Part shown: in pieces, positions 1,386 through 38,934 of the stretch
Layout: each line of letters starts with the position of its first letter
Numbering within the stretch: the stretch's first letter is position 1
NCBI GenBank assembly: GCA_903869185.1
Contig: CAIPYC010000038.1
Location: forward strand, 1 to 39,164
Length of the DNA stretch: 39,164 nt
Reading direction: 5' to 3'
From: an uncultured cyanobacterium
GTDB lineage: Bacteria; Cyanobacteriota; Cyanobacteriia; Cyanobacteriales; Microcystaceae
Made by a program: the position numbers and the translations under genes
Notes under the pieces: generated by a model
The model's input: the letters and a program-made list of their open reading frames with translations, nothing else
Told to the model about the DNA's origin: nothing
Databases searched by the model: none

Positions 1386-3107
1386 CTAATTCTCCAGAGA
1401 GCGAAATTTGGCAGCTTTTTTCAAGAGAGATTGGGCGAAAGCTACCGCATCTTGAGCGCAATGTCCGCCGGCAAGTTGAGCGAGCTCCTGGGTTCTATGT
1501 TGATAGTTTATCAATTTATCTACCCTAACTACAGTTCGCTCTTGTTGATCTTCTTGAATAATGTTTTTGGAAACGCGAAAATGAACATCAGCTAAAGCCG
1601 CAATTATGGGTTGGTGAGTGACGCAGAGAACTTGATATTTTTGGGCAAGTTGGTGTAACTTGAGTGAAATCGCCTGGGACACATTACCTGAGACACCGGC
1701 ATCAATCTCATCAAAAATCAGAGTACAATATTGTTTTTGATATTGAGCAAAACAAGCCTTTAAAGCTAGCAGAAAACGACTCATTTCCCCACCAGAAGCT
1801 ATCAGGGATAATGGTTGAATCTTTTCTCCAGCATTGGGACTGAAATAAAATTCTATCTCCTCAGCTCCTAAAGCCCCTAGAGCGCATTGGGAAAACTGAC
1901 AGGCAAAGATCACTTTTTCCATAGCCAATGGTTTTAATTCCCTCATGAGATCACGTTCTAGTTTGCCGGCAGTGTCTTTTCTCAGTTTGGATAGCTTTTG
2001 ACATTGGTCTTGCAGAAAAATATAGGACTTTTTTTCGAGATCTTCTAGTTCAGACTGTGAGTGACCTTTGCCAGTTAAAGATTCTAACTCTTCTTGCAGG
2101 GATTGATATTTAGTAATCGTTTCAGCCAGGCTGGGGCCATATTTCCGGCATATACGCTTGAGTAACCTGATTCTCTCTTCAACTTCTTCGAGATGATTTG
2201 GATCTGCCTCCAGGCGATCGCCATAGGCATAAACCAGATTACTGACTTCTACTGTCAGATTTAAGGCAGAGGAGATCAATTCTGTTAAAGATTCGAGATC
2301 AGGATCATATTTGACCATTTCCTGCAGCAGAGAATTAGCTTGACCAAGTAAATCGGTGACAGCCTGTTGCCCTTGATCGTTTTGATAGAGGATTTGGTAA
2401 GCCTGATAGCTAAGCTGCTGGAGCTCTACTACATGGGATAGACGCTCACTGTCTTGTTCTAATAGTTCAAGTTCATCAGGTTGGGATAAATTAGCCAACT
2501 TGAGCTCTTCTGATTGAAATTTAACCAGATCCAGTCGCTGAAGTAGATCCTTTTGCGATTGTAGATGAAAATCCAGTTCATTTTTGGCCTTTTGGTATTG
2601 TTGATAGGCAGTAGTAACAGCCGCGCGAGCATCAGCAACCGGCGGACCTCCATAGAAATCGAGTAGATCTCTTTGCCGCTGATTGTTGGTCAATTGAATC
2701 GTTTGTCCCTGAGCGGTAATCTCAATCAGATGATCTCGAAGAATTTTTAGAGACTGCAGATTGACCAGGACTCCATTGATCCTAGAGCGTGACTTGAATG
2801 AGGTACCTGAAATATTGAACTCACGGGTGCAAATGAGATAACCTTCCTCTATTGGTTCAATCTTCTCGGCTAATAGATACTGCTCTACCACCGAAGAAAG
2901 CCTGAAAGTCGCCTCGATACAACCTTGACTGGTTCCCTGGCGGAGAAAGCGTGAGTTGATCTTACCGCCAAGAACTAGATCAATAGCATCTAGAATGATC
3001 GATTTACCAGCTCCTGTTTCTCCAGTCAAAACATTTAGACCAGCATTAAATTCTATTTCCAAGTCATCGACTAGAGCAAAATTTTTGATCTTCAGTAGAG
3101 CTAGCAT
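1386..3107 (-). CDS. recN: DNA repair protein RecN
   Basis: SMC-like ATPase of 573 residues that acts in recombinational repair of double-strand breaks in the cytoplasm. The N-terminal half-ATPase has Walker A GETGAGKS (29-36). Long coiled-coil arms rich in Gln, Glu and Leu fill about residues 150-385. The C-terminal half carries the ABC signature ASGGEMSRF and Walker B LIFDEIDAGVSG, followed by the CVTHQP switch region. Length fits the family (about 550-590). The start ATG lies 5 bases after the pheS stop, so the two genes are very probably co-transcribed, ending at the terminator at 1264-1315. The gene appears intact. Confidence 0.96.
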   Translation of the reverse strand: MLALLKIKNFALVDDLEIEFNAGLNVLTGETGAGKSIILDAIDLVLGGKINSRFLRQGTSQGCIEATFRLSSVVEQYLLAEKIEPIEEGYLICTREFNISGTSFKSRSRINGVLVNLQSLKILRDHLIEITAQGQTIQLTNNQRQRDLLDFYGGPPVADARAAVTTAYQQYQKAKNELDFHLQSQKDLLQRLDLVKFQSEELKLANLSQPDELELLEQDSERLSHVVELQQLSYQAYQILYQNDQGQQAVTDLLGQANSLLQEMVKYDPDLESLTELISSALNLTVEVSNLVYAYGDRLEADPNHLEEVEERIRLLKRICRKYGPSLAETITKYQSLQEELESLTGKGHSQSELEDLEKKSYIFLQDQCQKLSKLRKDTAGKLERDLMRELKPLAMEKVIFACQFSQCALGALGAEEIEFYFSPNAGEKIQPLSLIASGGEMSRFLLALKACFAQYQKQYCTLIFDEIDAGVSGNVSQAISLKLHQLAQKYQVLCVTHQPIIAALADVHFRVSKNIIQEDQQERTVVRVDKLINYQHRTQELAQLAGGHCAQDAVAFAQSLLKKAAKFRSLEN

Positions 3108-3112
3108 TGATC

Positions 3113-4117
3113 CTAAAACTGCCTCAGAAAACGCAGATCGCTATTGTAAAGACGACGGATATCATCAATCTGATGCAGGACCATCGCAAAACGTTCTACA
3201 CCAAAACCTGCAGCAAAGCCAGTATAGATCTCCGGATCATAGCCAACAGCTTCTAAAACGCTAGGATCAACCATACCACAGCCCAAGACCTCTAGCCATT
3301 CACCTTTCCACTCGATATCTACTTCAGCACTAGGCTCGGTAAACGGGAAATAACTGGCTCTAAAGCGCACTGGCAAATCAGATCCAAATATTTCCGACAG
3401 GAAGACCTTGATTGTTCCTCGCAAATCCGCAAAAGTCACCCCCTGATCTACCAGGAGAATCTCTACTTGATGAAAAACAGCAGAATGAGTAGCATCGACT
3501 GTATCACGACGATAGACTCTTCCAGGGGCAACAATCCTGATGGGGGGCTGGTGCTTTTCCATATAGCGAATCTGTACAGGAGAAGTATGTGTTCTCAAAA
3601 GACGCCCATCGCTAAAGAAAAAAGTATCCTGCATATCGCGAGCCGGATGATCCTCAGGGATATTGAGCGCTGCAAAATTGTAGTAATCTGTCTCCACCTG
3701 AGGGCCGGAGGCAACTGAATAACCCAAGCCAACGAAGATATCCAGGATTCTATCTATCATCTGGTTGAGGGGATGGATATGTCCAAGTGGACGAGATACC
3801 CCAGGCATAGTCACATCAAGGGTTTCTGCAAGAAGCTGGGACTCTATCTGTTGGCTTTGCAAATGCTCGAGGCGTTGATTTAAAAGGGACTCTAGGGTAT
3901 CCTTAACATCATTGGCTGTCTGTCCAATGTGTGGACGATCCTCATTGCTGATTTTTCCCATATTGCGCAGGATTTGGGAAAGCTGTCCCTTCTTACCAAG
4001 ATAAAATACACGCAACCTTTCTAGTTCATCTAGAGTTTTAGTTTGAGATACTATGGACTGGGCATCCCGACTTAAAGTAGTTAATTCTGCTTCAATTTGT
4101 TCAAAAGTGGTCGTCAT
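3113..4117 (-). CDS. pheS: Phenylalanyl-tRNA synthetase alpha subunit
   Basis: Catalytic subunit of the (alpha-beta)2 phenylalanine-tRNA ligase, which charges tRNA-Phe in the cytoplasm. At 334 residues it has the standard bacterial length: an N-terminal coiled-coil tRNA-binding arm (about 1-85), then the class II core. Visible core motifs are [10 protein letters not shown] (motif 1 region), [11 protein letters not shown] and [20 protein letters not shown] (motif 2), and [18 protein letters not shown] (motif 3, close to the C-terminus). The beta subunit pheT is not in the window, which is common in cyanobacteria. The gene is upstream of recN in one transcription unit and divergent from surE. 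Nothing odd was seen. Confidence 0.97.
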
Positions 4118-4204
4118 ATTAATTCTTAATATCGAATATCGGGTCTCTTAAGTCTGCTGAAATCTCCAGAAAACAACAGAAATTTTACTTTTTTGATGCC
4201 AGTT

Positions 4205-5017
4205 ATGTCTAACACACCATCTACTATCAATATTTTAATCAGTAATGATGACGGAATTTTCGCTCTAGGAGTAAGAACCCTGGCCAATACACTTGTTGAT
4301 GCTGGCTTTGAAGTGACTGTAGTCTGCCCAGATAGAGAGCGCTCGGCTGCTGGACATGGGCTGACTATCCACACTCCCATTAGGGCCCAAATGGTTTCTT
4401 CAATTTTTGATCCTAGGGTGCGAGCCTGGTCGTGCTCGGGTACTCCAGCTGACTGTGTTAAATTTGCCTTGAGCGCTGTCGTTTCCAGTCGGCCTGATTT
4501 TGTCTTAGCTGGTATCAACCACGGCGGCAACCTAGGAACTGATGTTCTATATTCGGGCACTGTCTCGGCTGCGATGGAGGGATTGATTGATGGAATTCCC
4601 AGTATTGCCTTAAGCTTGAATAGCTTTAATGCGCTCAATTTCCAGCCTGCAGCCGACTGCGCGGTTAAATTGATCGAATACCTGCTCCAGTATCCTCTGG
4701 GAAAAAGCACCCTATTAAACGTCAATATTCCGGTAGCTGAAGTACTCAAGGGTTTTAAAATCACTAGACAGGGACTGCGCCGTTACATAGAAAACTTCCA
4801 AGAGCGTAAAGACCCAAGAGGCAAAACCTACTATTGGCTAGCAGGAGAAGTGGTTGAAGAAATCACTCAAGATTTCGATGAACTATCAGGAATTGATCTT
4901 CCTACAGATGTTGAGGCCATTCGCGAAAACTATGTCACTATAACTCCTTTGCATTATAACCTCACAGATATCTCCATCACTAAAGAGTTGCAAGGAATCA
5001 ATTCAGCTAATTTCTAG
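4205..5017 (+). CDS. surE: 5'/3'-nucleotidase SurE
   Basis: Metal-dependent survival protein of about 270 residues that removes phosphate from nucleoside monophosphates. The N-terminal ILISNDDGI supplies the Asp-Asp metal ligands. [31 protein letters not shown] and AAMEG are the other conserved blocks. Three in-frame starts exist: TTG at 4193, ATG at 4196 and ATG at 4205. I prefer 4205 because it places the NDDG motif at the usual distance from the N-terminus; none has a clear Shine-Dalgarno sequence. The gene is divergent from pheS (about 80 bases) and upstream of the DUF3727 gene. The long open frame antisense to it is not a gene. Confidence 0.95.
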
Positions 5018-5079
5018 AGTTGTCATAAAACATGATATTCTATTCAAGCAACCGATAGGAAACAGCTTTGGTATGAACT

Positions 5080-5679
5080 ATGTCTCCTGAAAATTTTGAA
5101 AAAAACAATGATCCAAATAATTTAAAACGTATTGAGTTGATCGACGAGGAAGGAAGATCTCTCCCCTGTTACGTAGAAAAAGAGTTGGATGTCCATGATG
5201 ATCATTATCTATTGGTTAGTCCAGTAGATACTTCAATTCGGATTTTGGCCCTAGATGGCTCTGAAGAGGAAACTGATGATTCTGAATTAATACTCATCGA
5301 AGATCCCGAAGAAATTGATGATATTTTTGAAAACGCTAAAGCGGTTCTCAGTGAGTTGAATCTTCTACTTAAAAATACTGCCTACAGCTTAACAGTAGAA
5401 GGTGAAATCCCTCCTTTTGATGAGGATCAGGTAATCTCTCTGGAACTCGAAGAAGAAGATACCGAGGAAGAATCACTTGAACCAGAGGAGCTACAGTTTT
5501 TAACTAGCTTCTTTCATGGAAAGTACAAATACTCTATCTATACCCCCCTTGATCCTCTTCTTTACATCGTCAAGCAGAACCCAGCTGGTAAGATGCAGTT
5601 GATAGATCATGAAGATCCACAACTCAAGCCAATCATTGAGGCTTTTCTGTTTGCAGATCAAGATGAGGACGAAAACTAG
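5080..5679 (+). CDS. DUF3727 family acidic protein
   Basis: Protein of 199 residues typical of the DUF3727 family of cyanobacteria and plastids. It is very acidic, with runs such as EELEEEDTEEE in the middle. The N-terminal part (about 15-90) reads as a small beta domain (IELIDEEGRSLPCYVEKEL, then YLLVSPVDTSIRILAL). The C-terminal part (about 145-190) has the conserved FFHGKYKYSIYTPLDPLLY block. There is no signal peptide or membrane segment. Biochemical function is unknown. It lies 62 bases after surE on the same strand and may be co-transcribed with it, followed by a strong hairpin at 5688-5722. Confidence 0.85.
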   Translation: MSPENFEKNNDPNNLKRIELIDEEGRSLPCYVEKELDVHDDHYLLVSPVDTSIRILALDGSEEETDDSELILIEDPEEIDDIFENAKAVLSELNLLLKNTAYSLTVEGEIPPFDEDQVISLELEEEDTEEESLEPEELQFLTSFFHGKYKYSIYTPLDPLLYIVKQNPAGKMQLIDHEDPQLKPIIEAFLFADQDEDEN

Positions 5680-5729: not shown

Positions 5730-5810
5730 TGCGGATGGCGAGATTTGAACTCGCACAGCGTAAGCCACACGCACCTCAAGCGTGCGTGTCTACCATTCCA
5801 CCACATCCGC
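5730..5810 (-). tRNA. tRNA-Leu (anticodon GAG)
   Basis: Read on the minus strand, the acceptor stem GCGGATG pairs with CATCCGC and the discriminator is A. The D arm contains GGTAGAC. The anticodon stem CACGC/GCGTG closes the loop TTGAGGT, so the anticodon is GAG, which reads CUU and CUC. A long variable arm and the T arm (GTTCAAATC) confirm a type II leucine tRNA. CCA is not encoded. It lies about 53 bases downstream of the glutathione reductase gene on the same strand and may be processed from that transcript. Confidence 0.95.
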
Positions 5811-31656: not shown

Positions 31657-32172
31657 ATGGCTCTAGATTCTCTGGTTGCTTTACTTGGCGGTATTCTAGG
31701 CGGAGGAAGTACGGTCTGGTTATGGCAAACCAACAAACTTAATCAGATACAAGAGCGACTGGAGCAATCCAGACAGGCTCAGCGACAAGCTGAAAGCATT
31801 ACAGCTCAACATACAAAGGAATTGGCTGATCTCGAACGCACTCATCAGCAGCAGATCAGAGATTTAAAAAGTGAATATCAATTGGAGATTGCAAATTTGA
31901 CTCAAGCCATGAACTCCAAAGCACAGCCAACAGAAACAATCTCTAATGAGGATGCTCAATTGTTTCCTTTTGACGATTTATTGGGTGAGAAAGAAGATGA
32001 GCGCAGCGATAATTTCTCTCCGTTTACACCAATAAAATCTCTACAAAAATCTGATGATAGCGATCTAGACTATTTCGAGGATCTCTTCGCTGACAAAGAT
32101 GAACAAACTGATAATGATTTTGACTTTTCTAGCTTTTTTGACACAGAGAAAGATCCTCAAAGCAAAACTTAA
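31657..32172 (+). CDS. Membrane-anchored coiled-coil protein
   Basis: Protein of 171 residues without a named family. A short Gly-rich hydrophobic N-terminal helix (about 3-25, LVALLGGILGGGSTVWLW) leads into a Gln/Glu-rich coiled coil (about 28-90). The tail (95-171) is strongly acidic, rich in Asp, Glu, Phe and Ser (LDYFEDLFADKDEQ), and probably disordered. The stop shares TTAA (32169-32172) with the convergent CHAT-GUN4 gene. It may be a membrane-bound adaptor; this is inference. Confidence 0.6.
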   Translation: MALDSLVALLGGILGGGSTVWLWQTNKLNQIQERLEQSRQAQRQAESITAQHTKELADLERTHQQQIRDLKSEYQLEIANLTQAMNSKAQPTETISNEDAQLFPFDDLLGEKEDERSDNFSPFTPIKSLQKSDDSDLDYFEDLFADKDEQTDNDFDFSSFFDTEKDPQSKT

Positions 32173-34538
32173 GATTTGCACCTGGCCAATTTACCAAATA
32201 GTGACGAAAGTCGGCGCGCAAGCACCCAAGACTGATTCCAGCCCAAACCAGATCCTAAGGTACCCCAGCCCCCTGCATAGGCTCCTGTAGTATAGAGAGC
32301 TGGCAAATTGGCGGGTTTGGCTTCCAAATTGAAGGATAAAGAATCATAATCAAGCCATTGATCTCCTTGTTTCCAACCAATCTCTTGCCCAAAATGCTCC
32401 CAAACCTCATCTTTGCTATATTTTTCCAGATGGATAATTTGGTTAAATATCTCGTTCTGTTTGGAAAAACCAAAAATTCCGTTGCTATATTGAACCCATA
32501 GTTCATCTATTTGAAGCAATAGCCCACAAGGAATCTGCTCATGAAGCTCCTTAAATCCTCTAGATCTAGCAAGAATCATGATTTGATAGAAAATCCAAGC
32601 TGTTTCAATATCTGCTTGGCGATAATCACTTTGCTGCAAATAACCTTCAAGCTGAACCAATAAAGCCGATGGGGTGGATTGCTCACGCAACTGCCTTAGT
32701 TCTTGTTCAAAGGCTACATCCGCTTGAGCATTGTACTGCACAGACAGCATTGCCAGAAAAGTTTCTTTGAATCTGCCAGAATTACTTTTATCAGCCAGTG
32801 CCAATCTAAATAACTCATGCCACTTTTGCGTATCTTCATTTTCTCTGTTTAACCAGAGTTGGAATAATATTGTCGCAGCTTTTCGAGATAAATGATAGTA
32901 AAAATCGCTTTCTTTATTCAATTGTAAGCTTGGGACTAACTGAGGCAATACACTGGCTACGCTGTAGAGTTGCTCCGGGAAATCAACCAATTCCAGTAAT
33001 CCCTGGTCAATCGCCTTGAAAATGTTGTTTTGGTAATTGGATAAATCTTTACAAACACATTCGAGAGCAGATATTGGTACCGCCATTTCATAGACTGCGC
33101 AATGTCTGAGAATGTTATGGATTTCGGGATCGATTGTTGTTAGAGAGCTATCCAAAGAACTCTTGCCCAGGCTTGACAATAGATAAAAAGAGTGAGCTAA
33201 GTTAGTATTAAATTCATAGTGAGAAGCCAGAATAATACGATGGGCAAAACTTCCTTCTCTTATAGCCCAAAGCAGAGATTTTAATATTTCTTCAGTTTCT
33301 ATCTTAAGCGAATATTTATCATTTTTAAAATTGAGATTCCATTCAAATTCATAAAAAATAAATAAATAACAATTATTGATTGATTGCCTGAATATATCCC
33401 TCAATTGATATTTAAAATCAATAGATTTATCATACTCAACTTTTATGAATTTAGTTAGATTTTCAACTATATCAGAACTACTGAGACGTCGACTACAAAT
33501 GATCTGTTGATGATTGGGCAACAGCTTAGCTAGTCCAGAGGCGATCGACTGACTGTTAGGATCTCCAATCATGATACCGCGCTGGGCTTTTGAGGCTATA
33601 GTCAAAGCCTGCTGGGATTCAAGTAAGCTTTGGCGACTTAATGCATAAGCATCCGAAATCAATGTTCGATTTACTAAATAAATAGGTAAGTTGCCCATGA
33701 CATGCAGTCGAATCTCATGGGGGTTACCTTGTTGATGTGAAGCTACAAGACAATCAAGTAAACTATTTCCTTTGGCTAATTGCAGATAGAGAGTATTAAA
33801 GGTATCTTGATTTTCTTTGATCGTCAGAATAGCTTGAGCTCCGCACTTTAGCAATTCTTCTGCTAGAAAACTTGCCAAATCTGTATTTTCCCAGTTACCG
33901 GAAAGAAGTAACAGTTTGGGAAAACTATATTTTAGTTTTTCAGCAATCTGGGTTGGATTTAATGAATCTCCAAAGCAGATCTGTTCATTTTGCAAGGAAA
34001 CGTCTCCGCTTAGGTGAATCAGATCATAGTAGTTTTTTTCTCTTGTCTGGGGAGATTGCCATAACTGATCAATTAAATCACCCTTGGTAATCTCTAGCTT
34101 AGAATTTTCCAAAAGTGGCAACCATTGCCCACGTGAAAGCAAAAAAACATTCAATCTTCCCGCCGGAAGTAATGGCAATTCTTCTCTGGGACTACTGGTT
34201 TTGTAACAACGAACCGCAAGCAAGGCCGGCTTACGGTTAATTAAAAAATTATGTCCATCATGTAGCAATTCCCAAGGCAAGAGGGAGAATTCTCTGCCAC
34301 AATATATGGCAATCATGCAACTGTCTTCATGGAAAGCCTGGATCTCTCGATCTAAAATACAGTCAGATCCATTTAACCATTGATATAAAGATGCTCCCGA
34401 ATCCGCTGGATTAGCCAAGTCAATCTCTGGAGGCTGGTGTGATATTCGACAGGTTTTCAATTGCTCAGAACTATTCCAGAAGTAATGGTAATAAAGTAGA
34501 TCTCCTGTTCTTTCTAGATCTATATGAAGAATATTCAT
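32169..34538 (-). CDS. CHAT-like / NTPase-like / GUN4 fusion protein
   Basis: Protein of 789 residues. Residues 70-295 have the CHAT peptidase layout (LLPWELLHDG at 86-95), but the catalytic His site GHG reads SGDV (177-180) and the Cys site SAC reads LSGNW (212-216), so the protease looks dead. Residues 320-400 resemble a STAND-type NTPase whose P-loop (IGDPNSQS, 324-331) lacks GKT and whose Walker B reads FIFYEFEWNL. A helical region follows. Residues 625-786 match GUN4: IPCGLLLQIDELWVQYSNG, FGFS, IGWKQGDQWLDYDSLSFNL and LPALYTTG. GUN4 domains bind porphyrins and control Mg-chelatase. Last gene of the operon from 37658, 15 bases after the phosphatase gene. Confidence 0.85.
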   Translation of the reverse strand: MNILHIDLERTGDLLYYHYFWNSSEQLKTCRISHQPPEIDLANPADSGASLYQWLNGSDCILDREIQAFHEDSCMIAIYCGREFSLLPWELLHDGHNFLINRKPALLAVRCYKTSSPREELPLLPAGRLNVFLLSRGQWLPLLENSKLEITKGDLIDQLWQSPQTREKNYYDLIHLSGDVSLQNEQICFGDSLNPTQIAEKLKYSFPKLLLLSGNWENTDLASFLAEELLKCGAQAILTIKENQDTFNTLYLQLAKGNSLLDCLVASHQQGNPHEIRLHVMGNLPIYLVNRTLISDAYALSRQSLLESQQALTIASKAQRGIMIGDPNSQSIASGLAKLLPNHQQIICSRRLSSSDIVENLTKFIKVEYDKSIDFKYQLRDIFRQSINNCYLFIFYEFEWNLNFKNDKYSLKIETEEILKSLLWAIREGSFAHRIILASHYEFNTNLAHSFYLLSSLGKSSLDSSLTTIDPEIHNILRHCAVYEMAVPISALECVCKDLSNYQNNIFKAIDQGLLELVDFPEQLYSVASVLPQLVPSLQLNKESDFYYHLSRKAATILFQLWLNRENEDTQKWHELFRLALADKSNSGRFKETFLAMLSVQYNAQADVAFEQELRQLREQSTPSALLVQLEGYLQQSDYRQADIETAWIFYQIMILARSRGFKELHEQIPCGLLLQIDELWVQYSNGIFGFSKQNEIFNQIIHLEKYSKDEVWEHFGQEIGWKQGDQWLDYDSLSFNLEAKPANLPALYTTGAYAGGWGTLGSGLGWNQSWVLARRLSSLFGKLARCKS

Positions 34539-34553
34539 AAAATAAGTTGGAAT

Positions 34554-35882
34554 TTATAGTGCGCCCCTTGCAGTCTGATCAAGTATACCAGTCCCAAAGT
34601 GATTAGTAATGTTCAAAGCCTGCAGAATAGGTATGCCATGTTCACTCTGTTGATAATCAATTACAGTAACTGATCCATTACCTTGCTTGATTTGCCATAT
34701 ATTAGCTGGGCTAAGTCCCAAAATATGACATACTATCACCTTATTAATCGCATCATGGGCTACAACCAAGCCAGTTATTAAACGCTCAGAATCTATATAT
34801 TGGGCAACCAAATCTTCCCAACAGCTGATCGCTCTGTCCCACACATCAGAGAGATTCTCGCCTTCTGGCATCTGTGCTTTTTCTGGTGAGACTTTCCACT
34901 GTTGGAGCAACTCTGTCCATTCTTGTTCAATTTCTTTTTCGAGCTTTCCTTCCCAAAGTCCATGACAAATCTCTATGAGCTGATCACTTAATTCTAAATT
35001 TATGTGATTATGGTGCTTTAAAATGATCTCTGCTGTTTCTTTAGGCCGAGAAAGAGAACTACTGAGAGCAAAATCCAGCTTAATATGACTGAGAAATTCG
35101 GCCGCTTTTTCGGCCTGCATTCTACCTTTATCATTGAGTGGAACGTCTTTAATACCTTGAAATCTTGATTCCCTATTCCAATTAGTCTCACCATGTCTTA
35201 CCAAAAGCAATCTAAGTCCGCCTTTATTTGAGCGGGGTTTAGGCAGTGGCATATCTAGGTGTGCAGTCTGGTTGATTGATTCAATTTGAACGTTGTCGGC
35301 AGCATCAAAATTCAAAATATTAATACAACAATTAGACTGCTGAATACGATGATAATGAGATGAAGGTATATCTGAGGCAGTCATTATTAAACAGCGATTA
35401 ATACCATTGTGCCCAACTACTAGAATGGTTTGACCGCGGTGCTTTTGCAATATCTCAGACCAGAATTGTTGCCCCTGTTGATAAAGTTCAGCAATTGGAT
35501 AATAATCTTGTCCATTTACCGGCATTTTGAGTAAATGCGGCTCTTCTTTCCAGATCTTGTATTGAAGGGGAAATTCTCTCTGAACTTCCTCTTTGGCCAA
35601 GTTTTCCCAAATTGGCAAGTTAACTTCCAAAAGCAGATTGCTAATTTGTAGTTCGGGTGAGTTTCTAAGCTGCTTCTGAATTATTTCTGCAGTATCTCTA
35701 GCTCTTTGTAGTGGACTTGAATAGAAAGCATCTATTTTGAGATCGGACAGAGAGTTGCCAACACTGAGAGCATCCTGTCTTCCCTTTTCTGTCAGAACAG
35801 ATATATTCGAGCGGCCTTGTATTTTTTGTGCTGCATTTGAACTGCTTTGACCATGACGGACAATAATTACCTTGGTAGTCAA
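34554..35882 (-). CDS. Double histidine-phosphatase (phosphoglycerate mutase family)
   Basis: Protein of 442 residues made of two tandem histidine-phosphatase domains. The first has RHG at 9-11 and VVGHNG (His158). The second has RHG at 229-231 ([11 protein letters not shown]) and VVAHDA. In Synechocystis a related two-domain protein (Slr1124) has been reported as a phosphoserine phosphatase, so serine synthesis is a reasonable but unproven role. Start is TTG at 35880-35882: AGGAG lies 7 bases before it, and the TTG overlaps the panD TGA stop (TTGA). No ATG fits better. It precedes the CHAT-GUN4 gene. Confidence 0.88.
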
Positions 35883-37899: not shown

Positions 37900-38934
37900 T
37901 TAAGCTCTTTTTTTCTTGAGATATCTCAGTCCAATAAATAGTGGTATACCCAACATGAAGCCCTGTTCCGGGGAAAATTCAAAGGGGACATTGGTTGATG
38001 CTGATGGGGTGGCGATAAATCCATGGTCATGGCCGGTAGTGTCGGGATAATATCCCACAACAACTCCGTTATTGTTGATTCCCTCAGCATATGTACCATT
38101 TACGGCATTAGCATTAGGGTCGTTTAAATCGCTGAAGGTAGTGCCATTGTATATAAATCCATGGCTTGTGTAGTTAACGTCGTTATAATATCCAACAACA
38201 TCCCCGTTATTGTTGATACCATTGACAAACGTACCATTTACGCCATAAGGGTCATTTAAATCGGTGAATGTACCGCCGCTGTATATAAATCCATGGCTTG
38301 TGTAGTTAACGTCGTTATAATATCCCACAACAACTCCACTATTGTTGATACCAGAGGCATACGTACCATATACGGCATTAGGGTCGTTTAAATCGCTGAA
38401 GTTAGTTCCACTGTATATGAATCCAATCTGCTTGCCTGTACTGCTTTCATAACTTCCAACAACATCCCCGTTATCGTTAATACCACTGGGATATGTACCA
38501 CCTGCGCTATTAGGGTCGTTTAAATCGCTGAAGGTAGTGCCATTGTATATGAATCCATAGTTATAGGTGGCGGCATAATTTCCAACAACAACTCCGCTAT
38601 TGTTGATACCATGGGCATATGTATTACCTGAGGCATTAGGGTCATGAAAATCGCTGAAGGTAGAGGTAGTTCCATTGTATATAAAACTACTGGTATTGTT
38701 GGCATAATATCCAACAACATACCCGTTATCGTTAATACCAACGGGTACTGTACCATTTACGCCATTAGGGTCACCTAAAGCGGTGAAATTGTATGAGAGT
38801 GCATGAGCCGGGGCAGAAAGAGCAAGACTACCGAGTAGGATAGCAGCGATGGACAGTGTTTTTTGTTTACTTGTATCATAGTAAATATGTGTTAGTATTG
38901 TTGAGCTGACAAAGTTAAACAAATTGAGTCGCAA
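37900..38934 (-). CDS. HAF-repeat surface protein with PFEFSP sorting signal
   Basis: Secreted protein of 344 residues. A hydrophobic signal peptide (about 25-45, ending SAPAHA) precedes six repeats of about 44 residues (GFIYNGTTFSDLNDPN, then GINNNGVVVGYY) of the HAF type. The C-terminus is PFEFSPEQGF, a hydrophobic helix and LKKKRA: the cyanobacterial PEP-CTERM subclass. The only in-frame start is TTG at 38934, with no ribosome site. An ATG at 38877-38879 is one base out of frame; adding one A to the A6 run (38859-38864) would give MIQVNKKTLSIAA, a normal signal peptide. Function is surface or matrix display; partner unknown. Confidence 0.85.
   Translation of the reverse strand: MRLNLFNFVSSTILTHIYYDTSKQKTLSIAAILLGSLALSAPAHALSYNFTALGDPNGVNGTVPVGINDNGYVVGYYANNTSSFIYNGTTSTFSDFHDPNASGNTYAHGINNSGVVVGNYAATYNYGFIYNGTTFSDLNDPNSAGGTYPSGINDNGDVVGSYESSTGKQIGFIYSGTNFSDLNDPNAVYGTYASGINNSGVVVGYYNDVNYTSHGFIYSGGTFTDLNDPYGVNGTFVNGINNNGDVVGYYNDVNYTSHGFIYNGTTFSDLNDPNANAVNGTYAEGINNNGVVVGYYPDTTGHDHGFIATPSASTNVPFEFSPEQGFMLGIPLFIGLRYLKKKRA
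38149..38325. repeat. 45-bp identical repeats inside the HAF gene
   Basis: A 45-base segment is identical at 38149-38193 and 38281-38325, 132 bases (44 codons) apart, the length of one HAF unit. Other units are diverged, so this looks like a recent in-frame duplication or gene conversion within the array. Confidence 0.85.

Follow-up and report, generated by a model that had tools for sequence, protein, structure and literature searches.

A cyanobacterial GUN4 fusion protein as the probable, selectively maintained remnant of a CHAT-STAND signalling protein

The 39,164-nucleotide contig CAIPYC010000038.1 of an uncultured cyanobacterium of the family Microcystaceae (assembly GCA_903869185.1; 2.76 Mb in 205 contigs, 96.56% complete), hereafter the window, carries on its minus strand a 789-residue open reading frame, from an ATG at 34538 down to 32169, whose product joins a GUN4 domain to parts derived from a CHAT protease and a STAND NTPase. 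A sequence-only reading of this DNA had placed the gene at the same coordinates, leaving its strand unstated, and had proposed a non-catalytic scaffold that senses tetrapyrroles. On the balance of the evidence, we regard the product as what remains, without catalytic function but under selection, of a CHAT-STAND-GUN4 protein, now probably serving as a binding or adaptor protein. We hold with high confidence that it descends from a two-gene CHAT-STAND-GUN4 system and has been maintained as a pseudo-enzyme; that its binding or adaptor function would centre on the GUN4 domain is a suggestion from sequence on which we are evenly divided.

Relatives were sought in 386 genomes of the phylum, 39 relatives and GTDB contigs, and full-length relatives were found. 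Two belong to the same genus, at 67% identity (L071, from genome G387) and 41-42% identity (L072, from genome G386), and the others to the same family or order. The N-terminal half and the linker/GUN4 half occur at one place in at least 10 of the 385 other phylum genomes. In one of these, G103, the copy (L065 4747-7624) consists of two overlapping frames of 536 and 427 residues, perhaps through a frameshift or as a two-gene form. We aligned 14 proteins, comprising three congeners and 11 intact, non-congeneric cyanobacterial orthologues. The alignment omits L064 (late frame start), L065 (two frames), L073 (which ends in TPR repeats), the copy at the contig edge in L004, and also L061, whose sequence is identical to that of L004; L004 and L061 represent Desmonostoc muscorum FACHB-395, in which two CHAT-STAND-GUN4 genes stand in tandem at 61-2601 and 2701-5604, the first at the contig edge.

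The GUN4 domain foreseen in the sequence-only reading is real. It occupies residues 625-789 (32172..32666; all features of the gene lie on the minus strand) and is the sole Pfam domain of the protein, matching PF05419 at residues 629-748 with a score of 80.9 bits (cut-off 29.2), its tail being placed by alignment. Searched whole and cut up, the protein matched no Pfam CHAT or NTPase family, and CHAT PF12770 gave no match at E up to 1; the L072 protein matches that family at 57.1 bits. Across the 14 aligned members, again at E up to 1, GUN4 was found in 14, CHAT in 12, and AAA_16 and NB-ARC in 11, with NTPase scores below the Pfam cut-offs in both members shown; the window protein is among the misses for CHAT, AAA_16 and NB-ARC. 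Its CHAT-derived half (residues 1-290; 33669..34538) and STAND-NTPase-derived middle (residues 291-467; 33138..33668) are assigned because the relatives aligned to them match CHAT and AAA_16, NB-ARC or NACHT, respectively; the linker that follows (residues 468-624; 32667..33137) has no Pfam match. An NCBIfam search returned nothing over threshold and one sub-threshold match. A model of the whole protein, predicted from a four-row alignment, was too poor for a fold search (mean predicted local distance difference test score 43.9, predicted template modelling score 0.30).

A single branch separates the three congeners from the other members both in a CHAT+NTPase tree (support 96/93), which omits the partial sequences L122, L124 and L125, and in a linker+GUN4 tree (100/100). 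The branch leading to the window and L071 has 1.49 changes per column in the former and 0.58 in the latter. Members labelled in the CHAT+NTPase tree as having another C-terminus are those without a GUN4 match; the one scanned with Pfam was L073 (TPR). The full-length alignment, together with trees containing CHAT-positive members, indicates that the window protein is the descendant of a CHAT protein.

The alignment also bears out the loss of both active sites. The conserved CHAT-family stretch LLPWELLHDG is retained at residues 86-95 (34254..34283), and all 11 intact orthologues carry HL[TS]GH and SGC at the CHAT site, a GKS P-loop, the Walker B sequence DDFEWNL and a sensor-1 Arg. At the aligned positions the window protein has HLSGD, with Asp179 (34002..34004) for the catalytic His; LSGN, with Asn215 (33894..33896) for the catalytic Cys; IGDPNSQS in place of the P-loop (residues 324-331; 33546..33569); FIFYEFEWNL at Walker B (residues 393-402; 33333..33362); and His440 (33219..33221) for the sensor-1 Arg. 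The sequence-only reading had reported the missing His, Cys, GKT and Asp pair, and we found no intact His, Cys or P-loop residues elsewhere in the protein. Three further features had escaped it: the sensor-1 change, the replacement of GUN4 ligand residues described below, and a deletion, common to the congeners, that removes about 70 residues. The deleted segment, which holds the GNP motif (GNPRLLE region), spans 88-95 residues in the 11 intact proteins and is reduced to 19 in the window protein (residues 452-470; 33129..33185), 20 in L071 and 23 in L072. All four STAND features (P-loop, Walker B, sensor-1 Arg and GxP motif) are gone from the window protein. The CHAT-NTPase junction is likewise shortened, from 42-46 residues in the intact proteins to 20 in the window and L071 and 26 in L072, and a third deletion, within CHAT, reduces 41-44 residues to 25 in the window and L071; L072 retains 39.

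All three sampled congeners are impaired at these sites, to differing degrees, and none of the 11 intact orthologues is. L071 has Glu at the His site, Thr at the Cys site, no GKS, FDEFEWNL at Walker B and Asp at sensor 1; L072 has Gln at the His site, keeps the Cys, lacks GKS, and has LDQFEWNL and a sensor-1 Ser. From the residue and deletion differences among the congeners, we conclude that the losses were stepwise, the NTPase motifs and the His going before the Cys. A pattern scan of 11 further CHAT-STAND frames (L073, L117-L126) recovered the His in 11 and the Cys, Walker A and Walker B in 10 each; the misses are the Cys in L120 and Walker A/B in L122, a short contig-edge frame. As judged from aligned residues, one and the same chain carries a dead protease site alongside a dead NTPase site, which sets it apart from the orthocaspases discussed below.

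The gene is nevertheless under purifying selection and is not a decaying pseudogene, a conclusion that is well supported and that goes beyond the earlier proposal of non-catalytic CHAT and NTPase parts. Between the window and L071, the rates of nonsynonymous (dN) and synonymous (dS) substitution are 0.215 and 1.14, giving a dN/dS of 0.188 (bootstrap 95% bounds 0.146-0.236), or 0.178 for the whole gene by YN00. By part, the ratio is 0.181 (0.103-0.271) for CHAT, 0.243 (0.148-0.359) for the NTPase, 0.200 (0.096-0.327) for the linker and 0.134 (0.060-0.229) for GUN4. Because both proteins lack the His, the Cys and GKS, parsimony dates their divergence to after the loss. A crude neutral simulation of one branch (200 runs) produced a mean of 32 stop codons and a minimum of 19, against none observed in the three genomes.

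Constraint is also distributed differently in the two groups. Between the window and L072, identity rises from CHAT (0.35) and NTPase (0.35) through the linker (0.44) to the GUN4 core (0.54) and tail (0.59); mean identity over the 55 pairs of intact proteins falls in the same order, from 0.63 and 0.64 through 0.56 to 0.46 and 0.30. Pairwise alignments made without the multiple alignment gave the same pattern. Thus GUN4 is the best conserved part within the genus, whereas it is less conserved than the N-terminal half in 51 of the 55 intact pairs.

A further difference concerns a small upstream gene. Of the 16 loci retrieved, 10 (L058 4806-5126, L059 8117-8437, L060, L062, L063, L064 and L067-L070) have an open reading frame of 105-134 residues that directly adjoins the CHAT gene at its start or runs into it. 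A profile of this partner family matched in 7 of the 39 relatives and in 27 of the 386 phylum genomes, and in 16 genomes compared by coordinates the partner is the gene immediately preceding the CHAT match; it matched in none of the three genomes of the window's genus. Pfam gave nothing over cut-off for the family and sub-cut-off matches to DUF6556 in 8 of 10 members. The arrangement resembles the EACC1 systems described, mainly from actinobacteria and proteobacteria, by Kaur et al. (2020; their System 4; PMC7159879): in these, as in the intact relatives, the product of a small 5' gene has a hydrophobic middle that contains glycine, and a 3' gene encodes an N-terminal caspase-superfamily domain with a changing C-terminus; the window's genus differs from them in lacking the small gene. 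Homology of the partner to EACC1 is unsupported by hhalign, which gave probabilities of 3.2% and 2.8% with shallow profiles. An EACC1 profile matched in 4 of 148 genomes of the order, in none of the 386 genomes of the phylum sample, and nowhere in the window's own genome, a search in which the controls gave no matches either. Three clear EACC1-type genes (L114-L116) adjoin genes that by eye resemble C14 caspases.

These observations support a history in which the ancestor was a two-gene signalling system consisting of a small partner and an intact CHAT-STAND-GUN4 protein, and in which one genus lost the CHAT His and Cys, the P-loop and Walker B step by step and also lost the partner gene and some 70 NTPase residues. 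The present protein, its frame kept open by purifying selection, would then have a non-catalytic binding or adaptor role, with the GUN4-derived C-terminal domain as the binding surface, its tail variable in most intact relatives and conserved in the genus, and with the CHAT-NTPase half as a folded scaffold.

Several points weigh against this account. Neighbouring genes have dN/dS of 0.06-0.08 (NG86), two to three times lower than that of the CHAT-derived gene, so the gene is less constrained than housekeeping genes are; and because dS relative to L072 is saturated, the selection test rests on one species pair, within a genus represented by three genomes. The CHAT+NTPase tree flags the window and L071 rows for unusual composition, and the L072 branch is long. 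GUN4 is also better conserved than the N-terminal half in 4 of the 55 intact pairs, which join L058 or L060 with L059 or L066 and combine GUN4 domains 84-100% identical with N-terminal halves 59-60% identical. This suggests that modules were exchanged between genomes of one genus, and recombination could likewise have raised GUN4 identity in the window's genus.

Among other explanations, the one that survives best, although we think it improbable, is that an immune receptor has become a decoy or guard, whose GUN4-like tail would recognise an invader protein and signal to another effector. Domains of these types make up predicted conflict systems of cyanobacteria (PMC7159879), most intact relatives differ from one another in the GUN4 tail, and the PADLOC PD-T4-6 model matches the GUN4 part at 1.1e-20. 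That match, however, is limited to model positions 302-448 of 450; moreover, those of the adjacent genes that match Pfam are of housekeeping type, and within the genus the tail is conserved rather than diversifying. As a classification, PD-T4-6 (PADLOC PDLC04062) was rejected for the protein, with only the GUN4-like C-terminal part matched and positions 1-301 unmatched.

Slightly less probable still is the sequence-only proposal that GUN4 binds a porphyrin and the dead half relays this to Mg-chelatase or to a death pathway. It draws on the clear GUN4 profile match and on the proposal of Kaur et al. (2020; PMC7159879) that tetrapyrrole binding by GUN4 fusions reports photosynthetic status; the sensor idea has been published, as have proteins in which GUN4 is fused to kinases, caspases, trypsin or TIR (PMC7159879, PMC2176072, PMC3501461, PMC5756287). 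The domain shares its PF05419 core with the Mg-chelatase cofactor GUN4, and its sequence matches both 1z3x and 1y6i in the PDB; unlike that cofactor, it is fused to a large N-terminal part and lacks the ligand residues. In Synechocystis numbering, transferred via 1y6i, Phe196 is replaced by Leu (Leu734; 32337..32339), Asn211 by Tyr and Arg214 by Gly, the canonical LxNxLR being ALYTTG here (residues 747-752; 32283..32300). These residues are tied to porphyrin and bilin binding: mutants at Phe196 and Arg211 (191 and 211 in Arabidopsis numbering) are reported to lose 2- to 12-fold in porphyrin affinity (PMC8967248), and Asn211 of Chlamydomonas GUN4 is described as required for bilin binding (PMC10156173). 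With these residues replaced, the domain would not be expected to bind porphyrin or bilin in the canonical way; it may have other ligand modes, since the alignment in the GUN4 tail is loose.

The replacement is general among GUN4 paralogues, which have been described as lacking the bilin motif (PMC10156173). Across 56 non-canonical GUN4 domains (14 of the CHAT-STAND-GUN4 family and 42 from other proteins), Phe196 and Asn211 are each found in none, and an Arg occupies the 214 column in four. The non-canonical domains L016-L057 show a GHLP-type stretch followed by a variable tail in place of the canonical ligand motif. The window's genome has two GUN4 matches, the CHAT-fused one and a separately encoded canonical GUN4 that keeps all ligand residues, a further point against sensing by the fusion. 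In G386, the genome of L072, both GUN4 matches are paralogue-like (the best, at 2.3e-39, in a 473-residue frame) and no canonical GUN4 was found, perhaps owing to the roughly 90% completeness of that genome. We found no evidence that the protein regulates chlorophyll synthesis or light-driven death, as had been suggested.

It is unlikely that the protein is a dominant-negative regulator of active CHAT paralogues, a role proposed for inactive caspases in effector position (PMC7159879). Inactive caspase-superfamily domains are common in cyanobacteria, the His-Cys dyad being kept in 63% of the metacaspases reported (PMC3501461). CHAT matches, however, number three in G387, seven in G386 and none in a whole-genome search of the window's genome, so that the proposed regulator would have no detectable CHAT target in its own species. 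Least probable of all, a pseudogene decaying before its first stop codon would fit the progressive loss of motifs and the dN/dS above that of the neighbours, but not a frame that is open, within the same gene order, in the window and in two further species at 67% and 41-42% identity, nor a dN/dS of 0.19 between the window and L071.

Among the nearest known parallels to this protein are the cyanobacterial orthocaspases and metacaspases, which also include GUN4 fusions and inactive forms (for example Microcystis MaOC3 and MaOC5; MaOC2); loss of the His-Cys dyad is described as common among them, and strains with a single orthocaspase gene usually carry an inactive one (PMC5756287, PMC3501461). 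Orthocaspases differ in belonging to Peptidase C14 (p20) rather than CHAT, and the accounts of them in these sources describe no STAND NTPase. The earlier statement that no characterised protein has this combination stands in part: among the papers searched, none joins GUN4 with a CHAT domain, a CHAT protease, or CHAT plus STAND; catalytically intact CHAT-STAND-GUN4 proteins do occur in other cyanobacteria, and fusions of a caspase with GUN4 have been published (PMC5756287, PMC3501461, PMC7159879).

Gene order around the CHAT-derived gene is kept in the three species. A double histidine-phosphatase gene (34554..35882 in the window, minus strand) adjoins it upstream, ending 15 nucleotides before its start codon in the window and in L071 and 53 nucleotides before it in L072; beyond it, still upstream, are genes for aspartate decarboxylase and an S4-domain protein. 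We considered a plasmid origin and set it aside: 18 plasmid records match an intact orthologue, one of them across 80% of its length, and that one only to residue 757 of 940. On the plus strand, a convergent 171-residue open reading frame (31657-32172) with a coiled-coil-like stretch matches no Pfam family above the cut-off; its end and that of the CHAT-derived gene overlap by 4 nucleotides. Elsewhere in the window, a repeat protein on the minus strand (37900-38934) matches DUF3466, ends in KKKRA and is possibly anchored at the surface, and a single tRNA-Leu (5730-5810) was all that Rfam and tRNA scans returned.

More tentatively, we consider that the GUN4-derived domains of cyanobacterial multidomain proteins may be a recognition scaffold rather than pigment sensors, and that one such recogniser may have been domesticated in the window's genus. 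The ligand segment, from LxNxLR onward, would have been swapped for a variable tail, seldom alike from one protein to the next, and domestication would have discarded the protease, the NTPase and the partner and fixed the tail. The many cyanobacterial GUN4 fusions with kinases, caspases and NTPases are usually taken to be pigment sensors, and for the domains aligned here the comparison of residues argues otherwise. The genus itself may serve as a natural experiment, in which the protease and NTPase machinery has gone, the protein has been kept, and an intermediate species still has the Cys.

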